IMG/VR virus record: IMGVR_UViG_3300036790_000396
Coordinates: 62,001-126,000 of that record
From: a virus
DNA: 64,000 bases
Direction: 5' to 3' (one strand)
A program made the translations under genes and the position numbers. Within the stretch, counting starts at the first letter, position 1. Each line of letters begins with the position of its first letter. Below, piece by piece: positions 25,722-34,842 of this stretch. The notes beneath the pieces were generated by a model, which was given only the letters and a program-made list of their open reading frames with translations, was not told the origin of the DNA and made no database searches.

Positions 25722-25989
25722 GATGCTCTCCCAGGATGTAGACGAACTTCTGCCCGTGGTCATCGGACACCGTGAGCTTCACGCCGCTTGCGGGAGCACC
25801 GTCGTTCCCCGCTATCAGGGCCACCCAGGCCGCGCCGGCTTTCACCAGGGGATCGGCCCGGGTGATCGTCCCGCGCATGCGGATCTCGGCGCTCCTCAGG
25901 ACCGGGCCGTCGAAGGTGGCGATTCCGTCCAGCCTCATCTCGCCCACGTGCCCGGTGGCGAGGATCTCCCCGTACTCCTCAGCATTCAC
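25672..25989 (-). CDS. Small beta-rich hypothetical protein
   Basis: 105 residues from GTG 25989 (VNAEEYGEILATG); an upstream ATG at 26022 is possible but lies deeper inside the methyltransferase gene. Beta-strand pattern with GVKLTVSDDHGQKFVYIL. Function unknown. Confidence 0.55.
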   Translation of the reverse strand: MNAEEYGEILATGHVGEMRLDGIATFDGPVLRSAEIRMRGTITRADPLVKAGAAWVALIAGNDGAPASGVKLTVSDDHGQKFVYILGEHHEDPAGDDWYDLRWPD

Positions 25990-27294
25990 GGAGCCGCTCC
26001 AGGACCGGGGGAACCAGGGCATGCCATGCCATGAACGCCTGGGCCGCGACGACCCCGTTGCCGATGATCTTCAGCTGCGCCGACCGGGACAGGCCCGGCA
26101 CTCCCGTCACCCAGCCCGGCGGCATGCCCATCATCCACTCCGCGAACGCCGCCGCCAGCCGGGGCTGCCCCTTCACCCCCGTCTCGACGGGGGCCGGGAC
26201 CGTCCTGCCGGTCACCAGCTCCCAGCGCCGGATCGCCGGCCCGTACTGCCGCCAGTCCCACTGCGGACCGTCCTGCGCCCGGTCCAGGCCGATCACCTCG
26301 CCGGTCAGCATGGTGTCCCCGCGGGTGCGGTGCTGGCCGGGCGAGCCGTGGCGGGCCTCCCCCGTCAGCGGCGTCGGGAGCAGTGACAGCACGTCCCCGG
26401 CCGCCGGGTCGCCCTTCACCCCGGGATGGCTCATGCTGCCCGCCGCGCCCCCGGACTGCACCCGCAGCGCGGCCAGCAGGGCGATGTCCTTCACCACGTC
26501 GGGCAGGTACTGGTCTCCCGGCCCGCGGACGCGCCCGTCATTGCGCACCCGGCCGACCGGCCTCGTCGTCCCCTTGGCGTCGCGGGCTGTCGGCGAGGGC
26601 ATGAGCGTCAGCCGGCGCGTTCCGTCTCCTGCGGATCCGGCTGCGGCAGCAGGAACGACACCTCGTCCTCCAGTGTCGGCCCGTGGCCGCCTGCTTTCCT
26701 CTTCTCCGGGTGCTGAGGCCCCCCGTTCGATCCCAGCTGCGCGGTCGGCGATTTCAGCAGACCGCCGGAGGAGGGCAGGGCCGCCGCTGCGGGGATGGAC
26801 GGCGAGCAGGAACCACCGCTTGCGTAGATGCGGGGCTCCGGCCTCGGCTGCGCTGTAAATCCCGTAGGACCCCACGTACCCGAGGCGGGCCAGCCCTCCG
26901 GTGACCTGCGCGAGCGCCGCGCCCCTGCTGACCCGGAGGAGGTTGGGGACGTTTTCGAGGAAGATGACGCCGGGGGGTTCCTGAACCTGGTGATCCCGTC
27001 CTCGATGTACGGCCAGAGCCAGCGGTCATCCTCGATCCCCTTCTGCTTTCCGGCGGAAGATGCTGGTTGGCATGGAAATCCGCCGCAAAGTATATCTATG
27101 TCCGGTATTCTGTTCCACGGTATCAGCTTGATGTCGTCGTACAGCGGCATCCACGGGTGCCGTGCGCCGAGCACCTGGCGCGCGGCCGGGTCGATCTCCG
27201 CCATCCAGGCCAGCCCGGCGCCCGCGGCTGCTTCCACGGCCCGGCCGAGCTGTCCCGTCCCGGCGCATATCTCGCCGATCGCCTGCTGCGTCAC
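25979..27294 (-). pseudogene. C5 cytosine-DNA methyltransferase split by a -1 frameshift
   Basis: GTG 27294 overlaps the upstream stop (GTGA). The first frame has motif I (GEICAGTGQLG) and motif IV with the catalytic PCQ (GGFPCQPASSAG). The frame then fails at a run of six G on the plus strand (26972-26977). Moving one base back restores VIFLENVPN (motif VI ENV), GAPHLRKRWFLLAV (motif VIII), a target-recognition region and IGNGVVAAQA (motif X) to the stop at 25979. So one gene of about 437 codons is interrupted by a single frame change. Either it is inactivated, or the C6 run on the mRNA acts as a -1 slippery site. If active it would methylate phage or host DNA, for example to evade restriction (inference). 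Confidence 0.8.
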
Positions 27295-27674
27295 GGGCGC
27301 GGCCACCCGGGCAGCCCTTCGAGCCGCAGCACGTCCATCCCCGGCAGCCGCGGGCTGCTGCTGTATCCCGCGCGGAGCCCGAGCAGCTCCGCGTCGAGCA
27401 CCCGGCGGGCGAGTTCCAGCACGTCGTCTTCCACCTGAGATGGGCTGAGCGCAGCACCGTAGAGTCTCGCGCCGGGGGTGCCGTCCTTTCTCACGCGCTG
27501 GGCCTCGTTCAGCCGGATCATGTGAAGCCGGGGCTCGCCGCCGTGGAGCTGCCGGAACTGGAAGTTAATTGACCTGGCCCGCATGCTGTAGCCGGAGAAG
27601 GGCATCCTCACGTCAGGCAGGTCACCGCTGAACGTGAGTTCCCAGTGACAGTAGCCCGAGGAGCTGATGTCCAT
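27291..27674 (-). CDS. Hypothetical protein, 127 aa
   Basis: Coupled by ATGA upstream and GTGA downstream to the methyltransferase gene. Beta-rich N-terminus (YCHWELTFSGDLPDV) and Arg/Leu-rich helical C-terminus. Possibly works with the methyltransferase because of the tight coupling, but no domain was recognised. Confidence 0.65.
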   Translation of the reverse strand: MDISSSGYCHWELTFSGDLPDVRMPFSGYSMRARSINFQFRQLHGGEPRLHMIRLNEAQRVRKDGTPGARLYGAALSPSQVEDDVLELARRVLDAELLGLRAGYSSSPRLPGMDVLRLEGLPGWPRP

Positions 27675-28267: not shown

Positions 28268-31200
28268 ATGCCACAGCAACGTTTTGTCCGTATAGCGCAT
28301 GATCCCGGAGACCCGCAGCTTTGTTCCCATTGCTTCGGGCCTGAGACGAGATACCTCACGCCGGATGGCGTCAAGACCTTGGGCGAGACGGTCGGGACTG
28401 CCCAGCGGGTAATGACCGCGGATTCCCTCCAGTCTCACGACGGGCGCTGGGCCGATGCTGAGATCCGCTCGTTCGGCGTACAGCAGCTGCACCGGATCAC
28501 CCTGAAGCGCAACAAGGTAACCAAGGTGATCCGGGCGACTGCCGGGCACCGCTGGCTGGTGCGCCGCCCGGATCGCATTGTCACGACGGATCGTCTTCTC
28601 CCGGGCCACCGGCTGGCCACTGCCCGGCTCCCGCGCCAGGAGCTGGCGATGGACCGTGAGGGCATCTGCCATGGTTTCTTTTTCGGCGACGGAAGCCTGC
28701 GCCGCACGGAGAACGCTGATTACGGCAAAGTGATCCTGTGGGGGCAGAAGCGCGAGCTTGCTTCTTATTTTGAGGAAATAGCAGGTCGTCCCGGCGTCGA
28801 GAAGCACACTCCGAATGGCGTTCCCGGTCTTGCGTTCCAGGCCGGGATGAAGGGCTATGCCAAGTCGCTGCCGCTGCTGACGATGCCGCCCGAGTACCTT
28901 TACGGCTGGCTGGCCGGCTACTTTGCCGCAGACGGGTGGAGCGGGGGCACCAACGCCTCTCTCTCGTCTGCGGTGCGCGCTCACCTGGAGCACGTACGCG
29001 ATATCTGCACGCTGCTCGGCATAGGTACTTACGGTATTACCTCGAAGACGCGCACTGGATTCGGGAAGGAATCTGAGATCTTCGAGGTCGGGTTCAGCCA
29101 GTCCGACCTCAATACGGATTTTTTCCTTCGCAGTGATCACCGCGAGGCCCGCAGGCCGCCGCCCCAGGAACGTTTCGGATGGACAGTCGTCTCCGTCGAG
29201 CCAGATGCTGAAGAAGAAGTCTTCTGCGCGATTGTTCCGGAGAATGAGCGCTTCGCGCTCGAAGACAACATCCTCACCATGAACTGTCCTTTTTGCGGCT
29301 CCGGTCAGATTACGGGCAGATCTGACGGGGGCATAGACTGTGCTTTCTGCGGACAAAGCTTCATAGTTCGGGTACAGCCCGCTTTCCCAGGCATGCCGCA
29401 AGCGCCCGGAATGGGCGCTCCCACCGATGCCGGGCCCGAGGGCATCCCGGTGGGCCTTCCCCCCGGTGCCGGGCCCGAGGGCCTTCCCCCCGGTGCCGAC
29501 GGCGGCATGCCTCCCGGCGGGGACGAGGAAGGCGGCGGCTTCCCGCCCGGCGGTGACGAGGACGAAGAGGCCCCTCCCGGCGCGGATGACGAAGACGAGG
29601 ACGACGGTGCTCCTCCCTTCGCGAAGAAATCATCGCGCCGCCTGGGCGCCCACGAGCATCCTGATGACGACCTGCGCCGTCACCTCGCCGAGGAGCACGG
29701 CCACGGCTGGATCGAGTACCCCGGCGTCAGCGAGATCAGCCGCATCCACGATGCCGACCACCGCAACCGCGGCGCCGCCGCCCACCGCGGGGACATCGCC
29801 CCGCCGCTGCAGTCTCTTCCCGAGCCTGCGGCCAGGCACTGGCCGGCCCACCGCCGCGAGCGCTTCGACGATCCTCGCCTCGGCGACAGCTACGGCGACC
29901 GCTTCGGGGCTGAGGATGTTGCGGACCAGTACCGCCGCGAGACGCACGGACAGCCTTCCCCGGACTCGGACTACGGCCGGTTCGCCCCCGCGCCCCCGGA
30001 GCGCCGTCACCTGTCCGTCCGCCGCTACCGCACCATTTCCGGCGACGTGCTCCCCGAGGACGCCTACATCCGCCATCTCGCCGTCCTGCACTCCGGCGGC
30101 AGCTCCCGCGTGCTGGCGCTGCTGCGCCGCGAGGCGGCATCCGGGGGCGACGACGGCAGGCTGCCCCCCCGCAGCGTCATGACGCAGCGCCAGCACCTGC
30201 AGGCGACCCGGGACATGCGCGACCGTCTCGCCGCGTCCGGGTTCCCGATGGACGCCCCGTCAGGCGACGAGGACATGCGGATGAACCCGTCGTGCAGGCT
30301 GGAGACGGGGCATCACATCTCATTCGGCGTGGAGCTGCGCGGCGGGAAGCACTCGATGTTCATCACCCACCCGGCGGACATGGGCCAGGGCCGCACGTTC
30401 CTGGAAGTCGGCCTGGGGCGTGACCCGTCCCGCGTGGCGGATCTCGCCCGCCGCGAGCTGGGCTGCCCTCATGTTGCGGGGGAAATGACGGAACAGCTCC
30501 GCGGCCACGGCGACGAGCCCCTCAGGCAGCCGCCCTCGGCCCGGTCGGTGAGGCACGAGGCGGAGGGCACGCAGCCGCGCGAGGCGTCCCTGCGGTACCG
30601 TGCCGCGTTCGACTGGGACAATGCCACCGAGGACGAGGCCGACCGTGAGTTCCAGCGCCGTGAGGACGGGATGCAGGATGCGGTAGAACGCCACGGCGTG
30701 GACAGCATCCTGCGTCCCAACCGCGTGAACCGGATAGAGACCGGTCACGAGATCTCTTTCGAGCACCATCCCGCGGAGGGGGAGGGAGATGATTACTGGA
30801 CGGTCGGCGTCAACCATCCGGCTGACTCCTGGACCGGGGATGCGGAGCGCTACCCGCGCTACTACTGGAAGGGCTTCCGCGGTCCTGACGACGACGTGGT
30901 CCGCCAGGCGGTGCAGCACCTGCGCTCTCCCCGGACGATGGACGTGATGCGCGAGCAGTCCCGCCGTGCGATGAGCCGCGAGGCATCCCTGCGGCGCCGG
31001 GCCGACCTGGATTACGACGAGGTCCCTGAGGGGCACGCGATGTCCAAGCGGGAGCAGATCAGCCGGCTGCGCGAGATGCGCGGGCGCCTGGAGGACCACG
31101 GGATCCGGATGCTGCCGTCTGATAGCGGCATGGCTCCCTACTTCGACCTGGAGACCGGGCACCGCATCCTCCTGGGCCTTTCGCAGCAGCACGGGGACTG

Positions 31201-31465
31201 GCACATGTACGTCAACCACGCCCGCTCCGGCCCCGCAGCCGGCATGCTGGCCGTGAACCTGGGCCCTGACTCCGGCCGCGTCCCGGACCTCATGCACCGC
31301 GAGCTGGGCTGCCGTACCGTCATGAATGCGATGATGAGCCAGTCGGCGAACGCGGCGAGGACGGAGCCGGGGGAAAGGCAGCCTAGGGTGCGCCATGTCG
31401 CCGAGGGCGTCATCCCGAACGAGCTGCGGCAGCGTGAGGCATCGGCACGACGGAGGATCGCGTGA
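28268..31465 (+). CDS. Intein-containing zinc-ribbon protein with three C-terminal repeats
   Basis: 1065 residues before splicing, about 747 after. ATG 28268 after GGGAGG. An intein occupies residues 22-339. Joining the exteins gives LCSH-CPFCGSG...CAFCGQSF, a complete zinc ribbon that the intein interrupts at a Cys. Then a Gly/Pro/Asp-rich linker (PEGIPVGLPPGAGPEGLPPG), an L-x-x-HL-x3-H...H-x3-H finger-like motif near residue 465, and three repeats of about 110 residues around LETGHHISFG, IETGHEISFE and LETGHRILLG, each followed by a VNHPAD-like turn. REASLR motifs sit between repeats. Overlaps the portal gene by GTGA; probably a virion protein. Confidence 0.8.
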   Translation: MPQQRFVRIAHDPGDPQLCSHCFGPETRYLTPDGVKTLGETVGTAQRVMTADSLQSHDGRWADAEIRSFGVQQLHRITLKRNKVTKVIRATAGHRWLVRRPDRIVTTDRLLPGHRLATARLPRQELAMDREGICHGFFFGDGSLRRTENADYGKVILWGQKRELASYFEEIAGRPGVEKHTPNGVPGLAFQAGMKGYAKSLPLLTMPPEYLYGWLAGYFAADGWSGGTNASLSSAVRAHLEHVRDICTLLGIGTYGITSKTRTGFGKESEIFEVGFSQSDLNTDFFLRSDHREARRPPPQERFGWTVVSVEPDAEEEVFCAIVPENERFALEDNILTMNCPFCGSGQITGRSDGGIDCAFCGQSFIVRVQPAFPGMPQAPGMGAPTDAGPEGIPVGLPPGAGPEGLPPGADGGMPPGGDEEGGGFPPGGDEDEEAPPGADDEDEDDGAPPFAKKSSRRLGAHEHPDDDLRRHLAEEHGHGWIEYPGVSEISRIHDADHRNRGAAAHRGDIAPPLQSLPEPAARHWPAHRRERFDDPRLGDSYGDRFGAEDVADQYRRETHGQPSPDSDYGRFAPAPPERRHLSVRRYRTISGDVLPEDAYIRHLAVLHSGGSSRVLALLRREAASGGDDGRLPPRSVMTQRQHLQATRDMRDRLAASGFPMDAPSGDEDMRMNPSCRLETGHHISFGVELRGGKHSMFITHPADMGQGRTFLEVGLGRDPSRVADLARRELGCPHVAGEMTEQLRGHGDEPLRQPPSARSVRHEAEGTQPREASLRYRAAFDWDNATEDEADREFQRREDGMQDAVERHGVDSILRPNRVNRIETGHEISFEHHPAEGEGDDYWTVGVNHPADSWTGDAERYPRYYWKGFRGPDDDVVRQAVQHLRSPRTMDVMREQSRRAMSREASLRRRADLDYDEVPEGHAMSKREQISRLREMRGRLEDHGIRMLPSDSGMAPYFDLETGHRILLGLSQQHGDWHMYVNHARSGPAAGMLAVNLGPDSGRVPDLMHRELGCRTVMNAMMSQSANAARTEPGERQPRVRHVAEGVIPNELRQREASARRRIA
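28331..29284 (+). mobile_element. Intein with LAGLIDADG-type endonuclease
   Basis: 318 residues. It begins at Cys (CFGPETRYLTPDGVKTLGE, block A), has a block B GHRW, two LAGLIDADG-like helices (GFFFGDGSLRR and LYGWLAGYFAADG), and ends FALEDNILTMN followed by the +1 Cys of the extein. The residue before the terminal Asn is Met, not the usual His. Endonuclease motifs suggest it can home. Codon use is visibly richer in A/T than the exteins. Confidence 0.9.
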
Positions 31466-34400
31466 AGGTCAGGTTCTCGCCGACGGCGGCGCTCCAGCGC
31501 GACCAGGCGGTCGCCCAGGGCATGAGCCGGATGCTCGCCCGCGGCGCGGAAGGCGCCCGCGATGACATGACCCCCGAGGTCGCCGAGGCCCGCATCAACC
31601 GGCGGGCATCGCTGCGCCGGACCGGCAGCTACGGCGGGGGAGGAGGCGGCGGAGCCTCTGGAGGCTTCTCGGACATTCAGTTCGCAACCGGGAGGCCCAG
31701 GGATCCTCTCTTCTACTGGAGGCAGAACAACCTCCCGTACGACTTCAGCCAGAACGAGGAGCTGGCGAAAGTCCGTGCCTTCTGCCGGCTGCTGTACCAG
31801 ACCGACCCGATTGTCGGGTCCTGCATCGACATCTTCACGAAGTTCCCCACGATCGGGATGAACCTGGAGTGCCTCGGGCGTGACACGGGAGTCCTGACGC
31901 GCCAGGGCATGCGTCCTATCGGCGAGCTAGCCGGATCTGCCCAGGAGATCCTGACCGTCGGCGGCAAGTGGGCTACGGCGAAGTTCGAGAATTACGGCAG
32001 CAGGCGCCTTTACAAGATCACCCTGCGCCGTAACCGTCGTGAGAAGACGATTTACGCCACAGAAAATCACCGCTGGTTCCGCTGGAATGCGGACAAGGAA
32101 GCAAGGCGCTACGAGGGATCTTTCAATCCTGCTTCTAAGGTTTCGTGGGAGGATGTTCGAGAAATAAGGCTTAAATACGCTGAAGGCGATATTACTCAGA
32201 AGGACCTGGCTTCAGAGTACGGGATAACTCAGCCGGCGATCGGCCAGATAATCAGGCATGGCACCTGGAAGAATCCTCCCGCTGAGAAAAAGGAGCAGGC
32301 AACTAGAGCCTTTCCGGTGAAGGAAGAGGCAGTCACCGCTGACCTCATGCCGGGAGACCGGCTTGTCAGCGGGTGGTCGAAGAACCTCATCCATTCGACG
32401 TTTCCTTCTCCTTTTGGGATCGCGCATGGCATGACGTACGGAGACGGTTCTCTGGAGACATCCGGAGGCGGCTCCTACATCACGCTGTACGGGGTGAAGG
32501 ATCTCCAGATGCTGCCGTATTTCAACGGCTGCCATGTGACGGATCCTCCCTCTGAAGCTCGCCGGAACGGAAGGCGCGTCAGCGGCCTTCCGTCTTCGTT
32601 CAGGCAGCGCCCGACCTTGGACGAAGGGACTTCCTACCTGTACGGCTGGCTGGCTGGCTACTTTGCGGCAGACGGCACCGTGTCCAGTGGCGGAGAGTGC
32701 TACCTAGATACTGCTTTTGAAGACAATGCCAGGTTCATTCAGCATCTCTGCACAGTCTTGGGAATCAAGACCTATGACTATTACGCGTACACGGTGCCCT
32801 TTGTTCAGACGCCTCAGGGAGCTGTCTACGAAAATCACGAATCATACCGCGTGCCCATCGATTCTGCGTCTCTTACGAAGGATTTCTTCTGCATCAGCGA
32901 GCATCGTGCGCGATGGGAAGGGCGCAAGGAACGTCAGCGACGAGAAGAATGGACTGTCATAGGAGTAGAGCGTACAGACCAGGTCGAAGAGGTTTTCTGC
33001 GCTAAGGTTCCCGAAACGGAATCTTTTGTCATCGAGGGAAATATCCTCACCGGAAACTGCAAGGACAGCCGGCTGGAGGATTTCCACGGCGGCCTGTTCT
33101 TCGACGAGGACCATCTCGACTACGAGGAGTTCCTCGTCGACATCGGCCGCGAGTACTGGACTTCCGGGGAGGCGTGGCCGTTCGCCACGTTCAACGAGGA
33201 TCTCGGCATCTGGGATGACGAGGAGCTGCTCAACCCCGACGACGTCAAGGTCGAGCGCAGCCCGTTCCTGAAGGAGCCCCGCTACTTCATCCGGCTCCCG
33301 TGGACCATCCGGCAGATCCTGCAGACGCGCCAGCCCCAGTACGAGTACTCCCGCCTCGTGCAGGAGTACCCCGAGCTGACCGCCTACACGGCGGAGAACA
33401 CGTTCATGCCCGTGTCGAACGTGCTGCTGCGCCAGCTGAAGTTCCGCGGCGACACGTTCAACGTCCGCGGCCTCCCGCTGCTGACCCGCGCCATGCGCGC
33501 GATGCTGCAGAAGGAGATGCTCAACACCGCGCTGGACTCGATCGCGGACCGGCTCTACACGCCGCTGATCCTGTGCAAGCTCGGCGCCTCCGCCACCGAC
33601 CTCGGGACCAGCCAGCCGTGGATCCCCACCGAGGACGACATGGAGAACTTCGAGCTGGCCCTCGACGCCGCCCTCGCCGGGGACTTCCGTGCCCTGATCT
33701 ACAACTTCGCCGTCGACATGGCGCCCGTCCTGGGCCGCGAGCAGATGCCCGACCTCACCCCTGACTTCGAGCGGATCGAGGACACGGTGCTGCAGGTCTT
33801 CGGGCTGTCCCGCACGCTGCTCACCGGTGCCGGGGCCGGGCAGACCTACGCCGCCGACGCGCTGAACAAGGATCTCGTCACCCAGCTGATGAGCCGGTAC
33901 CAGAAGTTCCTTGCCCGCCACTTCCGGCAGCGCGCCCAGGTCGTCGCCGAGGCCCAGGAGCACTACGACTACCGCGAGCACGGCGGCAAGAGGTACGTCA
34001 TCATGGAGGAAGTCCTCGAAACCGACGAGGAGACCGGCGAGAAGCGCCTCGTCGAGCAGCCCAAGCTGCTGGTGCCCGAGCTGAAGTTCAAGGTGCTGAA
34101 CCTGTCGGACGAGGACGCCCGGCGCCAGTTCATCGAGGCGCTGCGCTCCGGCGGCGTCCCCGTCTCCCAGCGCACCCGCACCCGCGGCCTCGACGTCGAC
34201 CTGCAGGAGGAAGAGGAAGTCTCCTCCGACGAGGCCGTCCGCCAGGCGGTCAAGGAGCAGGAAACCCGCAGGCAGACGTTCATCGCGCTGCGAGACGGCG
34301 GCCTGCCCATCCCGGAGGATCTCGCGACGGACTTCAGCCCGCACGCCCAGGTCCAGGGGATGCCCGCGATGCCCGGCGCACCGGGGATGCCGCTCCCGCG

Positions 34401-34842
34401 CCTGGGCAGCGAGCCGCAGCCGCTGATGGCCCTCGCCCCCGTCCCGCAGGACCAGGAGGAGGAGCAGGCCGCGCAGGAGGACGAGATGAACGCGCCGCCC
34501 GAGGACTCCGGGGGAGAGTTCCCGCCCGCAGGGGAGGAGAGCGCGGTGCCGCCCGAGTCGGGCGAGCAGCGCAAGGGGATGCCCAGCCAGGCTGCCCTGT
34601 TCCGGCGTACCGCCTCGTCCCGCGACCGCGCGCTGGCCCGCCGCCGGGAGCGCAGCGAGCGGCTGGCCGCGGAGGCCGCCGTCCCCGAGGAGCATGCCGG
34701 GGGCCCGGACAGCACCTGGCACTCGTACGGCACCCCCGAGCCGTACCGGACGCCCGCGGTGGTGGGATCGCGGTGGTCGCGCCCGGCCGGGTCGGGCGAG
34801 AAGCCGGAAGCCGATGAGATGGAGTACTTGACACCAGGCTGA
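31462..34842 (+). CDS. Portal protein, interrupted by an intein
   Basis: 1126 residues, about 730 after splicing. GTG start in a GTGA overlap. After a Gly-rich N-terminus come FYWRQNNLPYDFSQNEELAKV, CRLLYQTDPIVGSCIDIF and, after the intein, EYWTSGEAWPF, TIRQILQTRQPQYEY, KEMLNTALDSIADRLYTP, FGLSRTLLTGAGAGQTYA and KDLVTQLMSRYQKFLARHF, the arrangement of large tailed-phage portal proteins that form the DNA gateway at the capsid vertex. The C-terminal 200 residues are acidic and disordered with SQAALFRRTAS. The intein sits after GMNLE, in the conserved N-terminal helical part. Confidence 0.88.
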   Translation: MKVRFSPTAALQRDQAVAQGMSRMLARGAEGARDDMTPEVAEARINRRASLRRTGSYGGGGGGGASGGFSDIQFATGRPRDPLFYWRQNNLPYDFSQNEELAKVRAFCRLLYQTDPIVGSCIDIFTKFPTIGMNLECLGRDTGVLTRQGMRPIGELAGSAQEILTVGGKWATAKFENYGSRRLYKITLRRNRREKTIYATENHRWFRWNADKEARRYEGSFNPASKVSWEDVREIRLKYAEGDITQKDLASEYGITQPAIGQIIRHGTWKNPPAEKKEQATRAFPVKEEAVTADLMPGDRLVSGWSKNLIHSTFPSPFGIAHGMTYGDGSLETSGGGSYITLYGVKDLQMLPYFNGCHVTDPPSEARRNGRRVSGLPSSFRQRPTLDEGTSYLYGWLAGYFAADGTVSSGGECYLDTAFEDNARFIQHLCTVLGIKTYDYYAYTVPFVQTPQGAVYENHESYRVPIDSASLTKDFFCISEHRARWEGRKERQRREEWTVIGVERTDQVEEVFCAKVPETESFVIEGNILTGNCKDSRLEDFHGGLFFDEDHLDYEEFLVDIGREYWTSGEAWPFATFNEDLGIWDDEELLNPDDVKVERSPFLKEPRYFIRLPWTIRQILQTRQPQYEYSRLVQEYPELTAYTAENTFMPVSNVLLRQLKFRGDTFNVRGLPLLTRAMRAMLQKEMLNTALDSIADRLYTPLILCKLGASATDLGTSQPWIPTEDDMENFELALDAALAGDFRALIYNFAVDMAPVLGREQMPDLTPDFERIEDTVLQVFGLSRTLLTGAGAGQTYAADALNKDLVTQLMSRYQKFLARHFRQRAQVVAEAQEHYDYREHGGKRYVIMEEVLETDEETGEKRLVEQPKLLVPELKFKVLNLSDEDARRQFIEALRSGGVPVSQRTRTRGLDVDLQEEEEVSSDEAVRQAVKEQETRRQTFIALRDGGLPIPEDLATDFSPHAQVQGMPAMPGAPGMPLPRLGSEPQPLMALAPVPQDQEEEQAAQEDEMNAPPEDSGGEFPPAGEESAVPPESGEQRKGMPSQAALFRRTASSRDRALARRRERSERLAAEAAVPEEHAGGPDSTWHSYGTPEPYRTPAVVGSRWSRPAGSGEKPEADEMEYLTPG
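31870..33057 (+). mobile_element. Portal intein with LAGLIDADG endonuclease and an inserted helix-turn-helix
   Basis: 396 residues from Cys137 (CLGRDTGVLTRQGMRPIGELAG) to Asn532 (FVIEGNILTGN), followed by Cys+1. Block B is ENHRW. Endonuclease helices read IAHGMTYGDGSL and LYGWLAGYFAADG, the second identical over LYGWLAGYFAADG to the intein 2.6 kb upstream. Between the splicing and endonuclease parts there is WEDVREIRLKYAEG...TQKDLASEYGITQPAIGQII, a NUMOD-like helix-turn-helix seen in homing endonucleases. Penultimate residue is Gly. The DNA is clearly lower in GC than the flanking portal exteins. Confidence 0.92.

Follow-up and report, generated by a model that had tools for sequence, protein, structure and literature searches.

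Two inteins carrying both class 1 and class 3 marks in adjacent genes of an uncultivated phage

By which chemistry does an intein splice when it carries the signatures of two splicing classes at once, and how do two such inteins come to lie in neighbouring genes? Both questions are raised by a stretch of 64,000 nucleotides (the window), positions 62001-126000 of the 146,944-base virus record IMGVR_UViG_3300036790_000396, from an uncultivated phage. Two inserts lie there in frame in two adjacent genes, intein 1 in the gene of a zinc-ribbon protein and intein 2 in that of the portal protein; the genes share a stop/start overlap of four nucleotides, GTGA. We conclude that both are very probably intact, mobile inteins with a class 1 start, that they belong to one family (here labelled Cys1+WCT, a name coined in this analysis for members in phages and bacteria), and that each arrived separately at its own site.

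What are the two signatures? Class 3 inteins have Trp at B:12, Cys at F:4 and Thr at G:5 (the WCT triad) and lack a Cys at position 1 (PMC5050341, PMC7891396, PMC3196547); generally they are also without the threonine of the TxxH motif (PMC6195587). Both inserts have the whole triad, which a preliminary description of the sequence had passed over, together with splicing blocks A, B, F and G, the terminal Asn and the +1 nucleophile. Both also carry the marks of class 1, namely TxxH in block B and the very Cys1 whose absence serves as a criterion of class 3 (PMC7891396).

How general is this combination? Searched with a seven-member profile (A1), viral contigs and bacterial genomes gave 80 loci each; 161 inteins were extracted, phage records included, of which 149 are distinct besides the window's two. 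Viral scans with intein 2 alone, or with the terminase intein described below alone, returned no relatives. The cellular set was found with nuclease-only patterns, none of which covers the splicing residues scored, and the viral set partly with a block F pattern, which biases its count at F:4. Cys1, Thr B:7, His B:10, Trp B:12, Cys F:4, Asn G:7 and the +1 Cys are present in all 80 cellular relatives, and Thr G:5 in 79, the other having Val. The lack of a penultimate His, which had been noticed earlier, is real (Met in intein 1, Gly in intein 2); since Gly stands there in 74 of the 80 cellular relatives, it is a trait of the family and not a peculiarity of this pair. In phage ribonucleotide reductase genes of Thermobifida P318, ICP1 and Staphylococcus (L239, L278 and L279) the terminal Asn of the intein is replaced by Gln (LTGQ^C, the caret marking the junction).

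If the triad is complete, might the block F Cys attack the N-terminal junction directly, as in class 3, leaving Cys1 a dispensable relic? The triad itself speaks for this, as do two distinct relatives (L129 and L138) that retain it behind Pro1; judged by their sequences, they suggest that Cys1 is dispensable in some members. Yet all 80 cellular relatives have Cys1 and the TxxH threonine, unlike the class 3 inteins sampled, which comprise the intein of a RecA-like gene in this phage and inteins akin to it and have no Cys1, rarely TxxH, and a THN end before Ser or Thr. Moreover, in the splicing-domain tree (112 columns) the Cys1+WCT family and class 3 fall into distinct groups (support 98/91 and 93/89), class 1 inteins standing to either side, and Cys is in any case the second commonest residue at F:4 of inteins generally, after Asp (PMC4031507). 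We therefore consider a class 3 route unlikely for this pair. In approximately unbiased (AU) tests, joining both triad-bearing groups as one clade was not rejected (p 0.36), and joining the Pro1 members to class 3 in the same tree gave p 0.49. That class 3 chemistry arose more than once, by a route on which the WCT triad came first, is a tentative and rather improbable proposition. Pro1 is seen in L129, L130 and L138, all in ribonucleotide reductase-like genes, and possibly marks a second loss of Cys1.

Two points count against our conclusion. The invariance of Cys F:4, Trp B:12 and Thr G:5 exceeds the needs of a plain class 1 intein, and both inserts score below the cut-offs of the Pfam Intein_splicing and NCBIfam intein models. 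The intein call accordingly rests on the blocks, the empty sites and the structure models. A search of the phage's own genome with Intein_splicing likewise found nothing, the model being too insensitive for the Cys1+WCT family.

What do the structure models add? AlphaFold2 predicts a HINT and a LAGLIDADG fold for both, with a mean predicted local distance difference test score (pLDDT) of 95 and a predicted template modelling score (pTM) of 0.92 for intein 1, and of 88.7 and 0.79 for intein 2. The best match of intein 1 in the PDB is the PI-PfuI intein (1dq3, E 2e-13); intein 2 matches the TliVMA intein and PI-SceI. The nearest solved folds are for both those of nuclease-bearing inteins, and the DnaB mini-intein is also among the matches. 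Both nucleases retain their two LAGLIDADG acids: D201-G202 of intein 1 is invariant in the alignment, as are D192 and D268 of intein 2 in 28 aligned sequences.

Where exactly do the inserts begin and end? We compared relatives without them, as the preliminary description had proposed, and the empty sites place both boundaries to the codon, in agreement with its lengths and coordinates (table 1). The portal C-extein, used as query in a scan of viral contigs, gave 80 loci; the portal flanks adjoin with a gap of 0 nt in all 77 with both flanks readable. At the zinc-ribbon site 44 of the 50 assessable loci have no match to an intein of the Cys1+WCT family, and the flanks are continuous in the 30 relatives displayed; such inteins occupy the site in L032, L043, L049, L053, L054 and L057, that of L032 standing three codons further on, inside the Cys pair (CPF^C). 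Further inteins precede CRLLY in portal genes of the group (e.g. L040, L047, L056) and CGEAW in that of L049. With two sites in the zinc ribbon and three in the portal, the region is an intein hotspot. The CRLLY inteins listed (L040, L047, L050, L053-L056, L058, L066, L067) have Ser at F:4 and no penultimate His (ends SKN, SSN or SRN), and some, of 171-176 amino acids (aa), are without a recognizable nuclease.

The open frames through both inserts and the exact empty sites of relatives, the confident HINT and LAGLIDADG models, the retention of every splicing residue and the invariant nuclease acids are our reasons for reading the inserts as inteins. That one or both are dead remnants which break their host genes is highly improbable, as there are no stops, all catalytic residues are present, the C-exteins are in frame and the models are of high confidence. 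By sequence, then, both are real and intact, and their kind as such is already known.

Did one of the two give rise to the other? They are clearly homologous (BLASTP E 7e-33, 36% identity over 255 aa, far beyond chance), both nucleases have two motifs, and the YLYGWLAGYFAADG block and the DNILTMN/GNILTGN ends reported earlier are found in both; the claim of two related LAGLIDADG inteins in adjacent genes is thus supported. The adjacency, the shared family and this 36% identity might suggest recent copying between the zinc-ribbon and portal genes within this phage, in either direction. However, a 51-member tree places intein 1 with the zinc-ribbon inteins of L049, L043 and L057 (support 100/95) and intein 2 with the portal-site inteins of L137, L121 and L111 (97/97). 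The identities agree: 55-59% between intein 1 and zinc-ribbon-site inteins of other phages, 46-51% between intein 2 and portal-site inteins. The AU test rejects sisterhood of the two when the whole intein is used (p 1e-4), but not with the short splicing domain by itself (p 0.11). The preliminary description had called them paralogous and named a phylogeny of the two nuclease domains as one check; there, too, sisterhood is rejected (AU p 3e-4), so the term stands only in its wide sense. Finally, the same genome holds a third Cys1+WCT intein that is closer to intein 1 than intein 2 is. This 332-aa intein interrupts the large terminase, 1.3 kb ahead of the window (C1:59748-60743, L246; junctions GMQH^CLGAET...LTGN^CVFDLV), and branches closest to the intein 1 clade (100/92); relatives of this terminase are uninterrupted at its site. 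Recent copying between the two genes is extremely unlikely. In L053 (3197-4165), at the zinc-ribbon site, the nuclease groups with L097/L084 (95/90) and the splicing domain near intein 1; a swap of nuclease domains is hinted at, on which the AU tests do not decide.

The two also differ in composition from their host genes. Their GC content is 62% (intein 1) and 56% (intein 2) and that of the exteins about 70%; at third codon positions (GC3) the inteins have 75% and 64%, the exteins 85% and 95%. These lower values fit late arrivals and, like the patchy presence and the site-wise clades, speak for our reading of both as mobile inteins.

What is the relation of intein 1 to the zinc ribbon? The preliminary description had it split the ribbon, so that the metal site would form only after splicing. 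This is not borne out: the spliced junction reads ...LCSH^CPFCGSGQITGRSDGGIDCAFC..., and both CxxC pairs lie downstream of the intein, the first Cys being the +1 residue. With all four Cys on one side the ribbon is not split, and a dependence of the metal site on splicing does not follow. From its first Cys onward the spliced ribbon is identical to those of L001, L002, L006 and L007. The first zinc ligand thus doubles as the +1 nucleophile. Since the thiol of this Cys is free in the precursor, the ribbon could take up metal ahead of splicing; metal at this ligand would be predicted to hinder the +1 attack. In the class 3 intein of Msm DnaB, zinc blocks splicing by binding the block F Cys (PMC7360933), a residue that is also redox-sensitive (PMC6195587). 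For intein 1 it is sounder to predict that its splicing would be blocked by zinc bound to the +1 Cys or to the block F Cys.

Might intein 1 then serve as a switch through which metal or redox state times the assembly of a head protein? The double role of the +1 Cys and the behaviour of the DnaB intein favour such a switch, as does the finding that 76 of 151 distinct family members (the window's two included) have CxxC at +1 to +4, mostly in the CFGC of DnaG-like zinc fingers. Against it, most relatives lack the intein, its sporadic presence and intact nuclease suit a selfish element, inteins favour conserved active sites anyway, and the +1 Cys is chemically required. We think a switch quite unlikely.

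What distinguishes intein 2? The helix-turn-helix (HTH) noticed earlier between block B and the nuclease is indeed an extra one, and its description as NUMOD-like is the part that fails: no NUMOD model matched the insert, for which only HTH_3 and HTH_28 appeared at E up to 1. The element matches Pfam HTH_3 (E 0.008), PHROG 517/20467/6156 and, by tblastn, HNH endonucleases of Gordonia phages and Twort, and it forms three helices in the AlphaFold2 model. The module recurs in the L137 intein, which occupies the portal site of intein 2; at the corresponding place the L032 intein has a Cys-rich module, by eye zinc-knuckle-like. DNA-binding parts appear to be exchanged in at this spot.

How, then, would the two inteins work? 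Splicing, the order of the nucleophiles, DNA cutting and homing are what we infer for both. Each gene would be translated straight through, and the HINT domain would cut itself out and join the exteins. Most likely, the block B TxxH would activate Cys1 for attack on the N-terminal junction, as in class 1; the block F Cys, where class 1 usually has Asp, may contribute, perhaps by relaying the acyl group. The +1 Cys would then attack, and Asn would cyclize without a penultimate His. The two-motif nuclease, aided in intein 2 by the borrowed HTH, would cut the corresponding intein-free site of co-infecting phages, into which the intein would then be copied. Each intein would have reached its site within its own lineage, not by copying between the two genes.

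Table 1. Positions of the two host genes, their inteins and the key residues and domains within them (window coordinates).
Feature	Positions	Strand	Details
Zinc-ribbon protein gene	28268..31465	+	
N-extein	28268-28330		
Intein 1	28331..29284	+	318 aa
Cys1	28331-28333		
His B:10	28547-28549		
Trp B:12	28553-28555		
First LAGLIDADG motif	28670..28693	+	HGFFFGDG, acid D120; G119-D120-G121 invariant in 49 aligned sequences
Second LAGLIDADG motif	28898..28936	+	LYGWLAGYFAADG, acid D201; Pfam LAGLIDADG_3 E 1.2e-5
Cys F:4	29225-29227		
Thr G:5	29276-29278		
Asn G:7	29282-29284		
C-extein	29285-31465		
+1 Cys	29285-29287		
Zinc ribbon	29285..29350	+	CPFC...CAFC, entirely C-extein
Portal protein gene	31462..34842	+	
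N-extein	31462-31869		
Intein 2	31870..33057	+	396 aa
Cys1	31870-31872		
His B:10	32068-32070		
Trp B:12	32074-32076		
Extra helix-turn-helix	32146..32259	+	between block B and nuclease; HNH-endonuclease type
First LAGLIDADG motif, acid	32443-32445		acid D192
Second LAGLIDADG motif	32638..32676	+	LYGWLAGYFAADG, acid D268; Pfam LAGLIDADG_3 E 1.8e-6
Cys F:4	32998-33000		
Thr G:5	33049-33051		
Asn G:7	33055-33057		
C-extein	33058-34842		
+1 Cys	33058-33060		

What are the host genes? The portal is identified by PHROG 2833 (portal, E 1e-125) and is about 39% identical to portals of cluster C mycobacteriophages. The ATG of the zinc-ribbon gene follows GGGAGG, which resembles a ribosome-binding site; downstream of the ribbon its protein has a long acidic linker rich in Pro and Gly and then a repetitive tail. 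It has no significant match in Pfam, PHROG or NCBIfam, its N-terminus has none among annotated phages, and Tonenili gp257, encoded just before the portal, is by eye no obvious homologue. A motif R(E/R)AS(L/A)R, perhaps a processing or interaction tag, occurs three times in the tail of this protein and once near the N-terminus of the portal (window 30578, 30977, 31433 and 31600). At 25979-27306 on the minus strand of the window, an apparent DNA cytosine methyltransferase is split over two frames, GGFPCQP in one and ENV with the C-terminal part in another: a frameshift, a sequencing error or a broken gene.

Which known inteins come closest? Those of likely DnaG primase zinc fingers in actinobacteria and sphingomonads (e.g. 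L160, L166, L190; label taken from the flank motif SFHVTPSRGFFH / CFGCGEGGD) are about 40-48% identical to intein 1. They share Cys1, TxxHRW, EEVFCA, ILTGN, Cys+1 and two LAGLIDADG motifs, and lie just before the zinc CxxC pair; unlike the window's pair they interrupt a cellular replication gene, and the extra HTH is absent. Tori and Perler reportedly described in 2011 a mixture of class 1 and class 3 motifs, with an N-terminal nucleophile beside the WCT motif, in the Catera Gp206 and Nocardioides JS614 TOPRIM inteins, of which the latter may well be of this DnaG type. Catera Gp206 is listed as class 3 (PMC3196547). Canonical class 3 inteins (DnaB, terminase of mycobacteriophages and others) resemble the pair in the triad, the LAGLIDADG nuclease and their frequency in phages, and differ in the features set out above for the sample and in their penultimate His. 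The one in this genome was met as a fourth LAGLIDADG match (C1:51308-51496) and sits at the P-loop of the RecA-like gene (L252, C1 about 50.9-51.9 kb; GPPDSGK^G...VTHN^T, with Gly1, DxxH, W, C, THN and Thr+1). By its description, the class 1 Bethlehem RDF intein is like the family in its penultimate Gly, Cys nucleophile and endonuclease, and unlike the pair in its host gene; it splices in a published test with Gly in place of the penultimate His (PMC5050341). With His restored there, its splicing was slower. PORT inteins of cluster C1 mycobacteriophage portals (PMC5050341) share the host protein family of intein 2. However, 214 annotated phage portals matched over most of the C-extein query, in one piece among the 40 matches listed, and the search with intein 1 gave no Mycobacterium phage match at E 1e-3, so that the PORT site or family differs.

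The main value of the pair lies in the double signature and the test it offers, rather than in adjacency or the zinc ribbon. With its many natural members that combine Cys1, TxxH and the full triad, and its Pro1 members besides, the family is material for testing whether the triad is able to stand in for Cys1, and hence for asking how one splicing mechanism became the other. In this one phage genome three Cys1+WCT inteins in head and packaging genes stand beside a canonical class 3 intein, so that both types can be compared.

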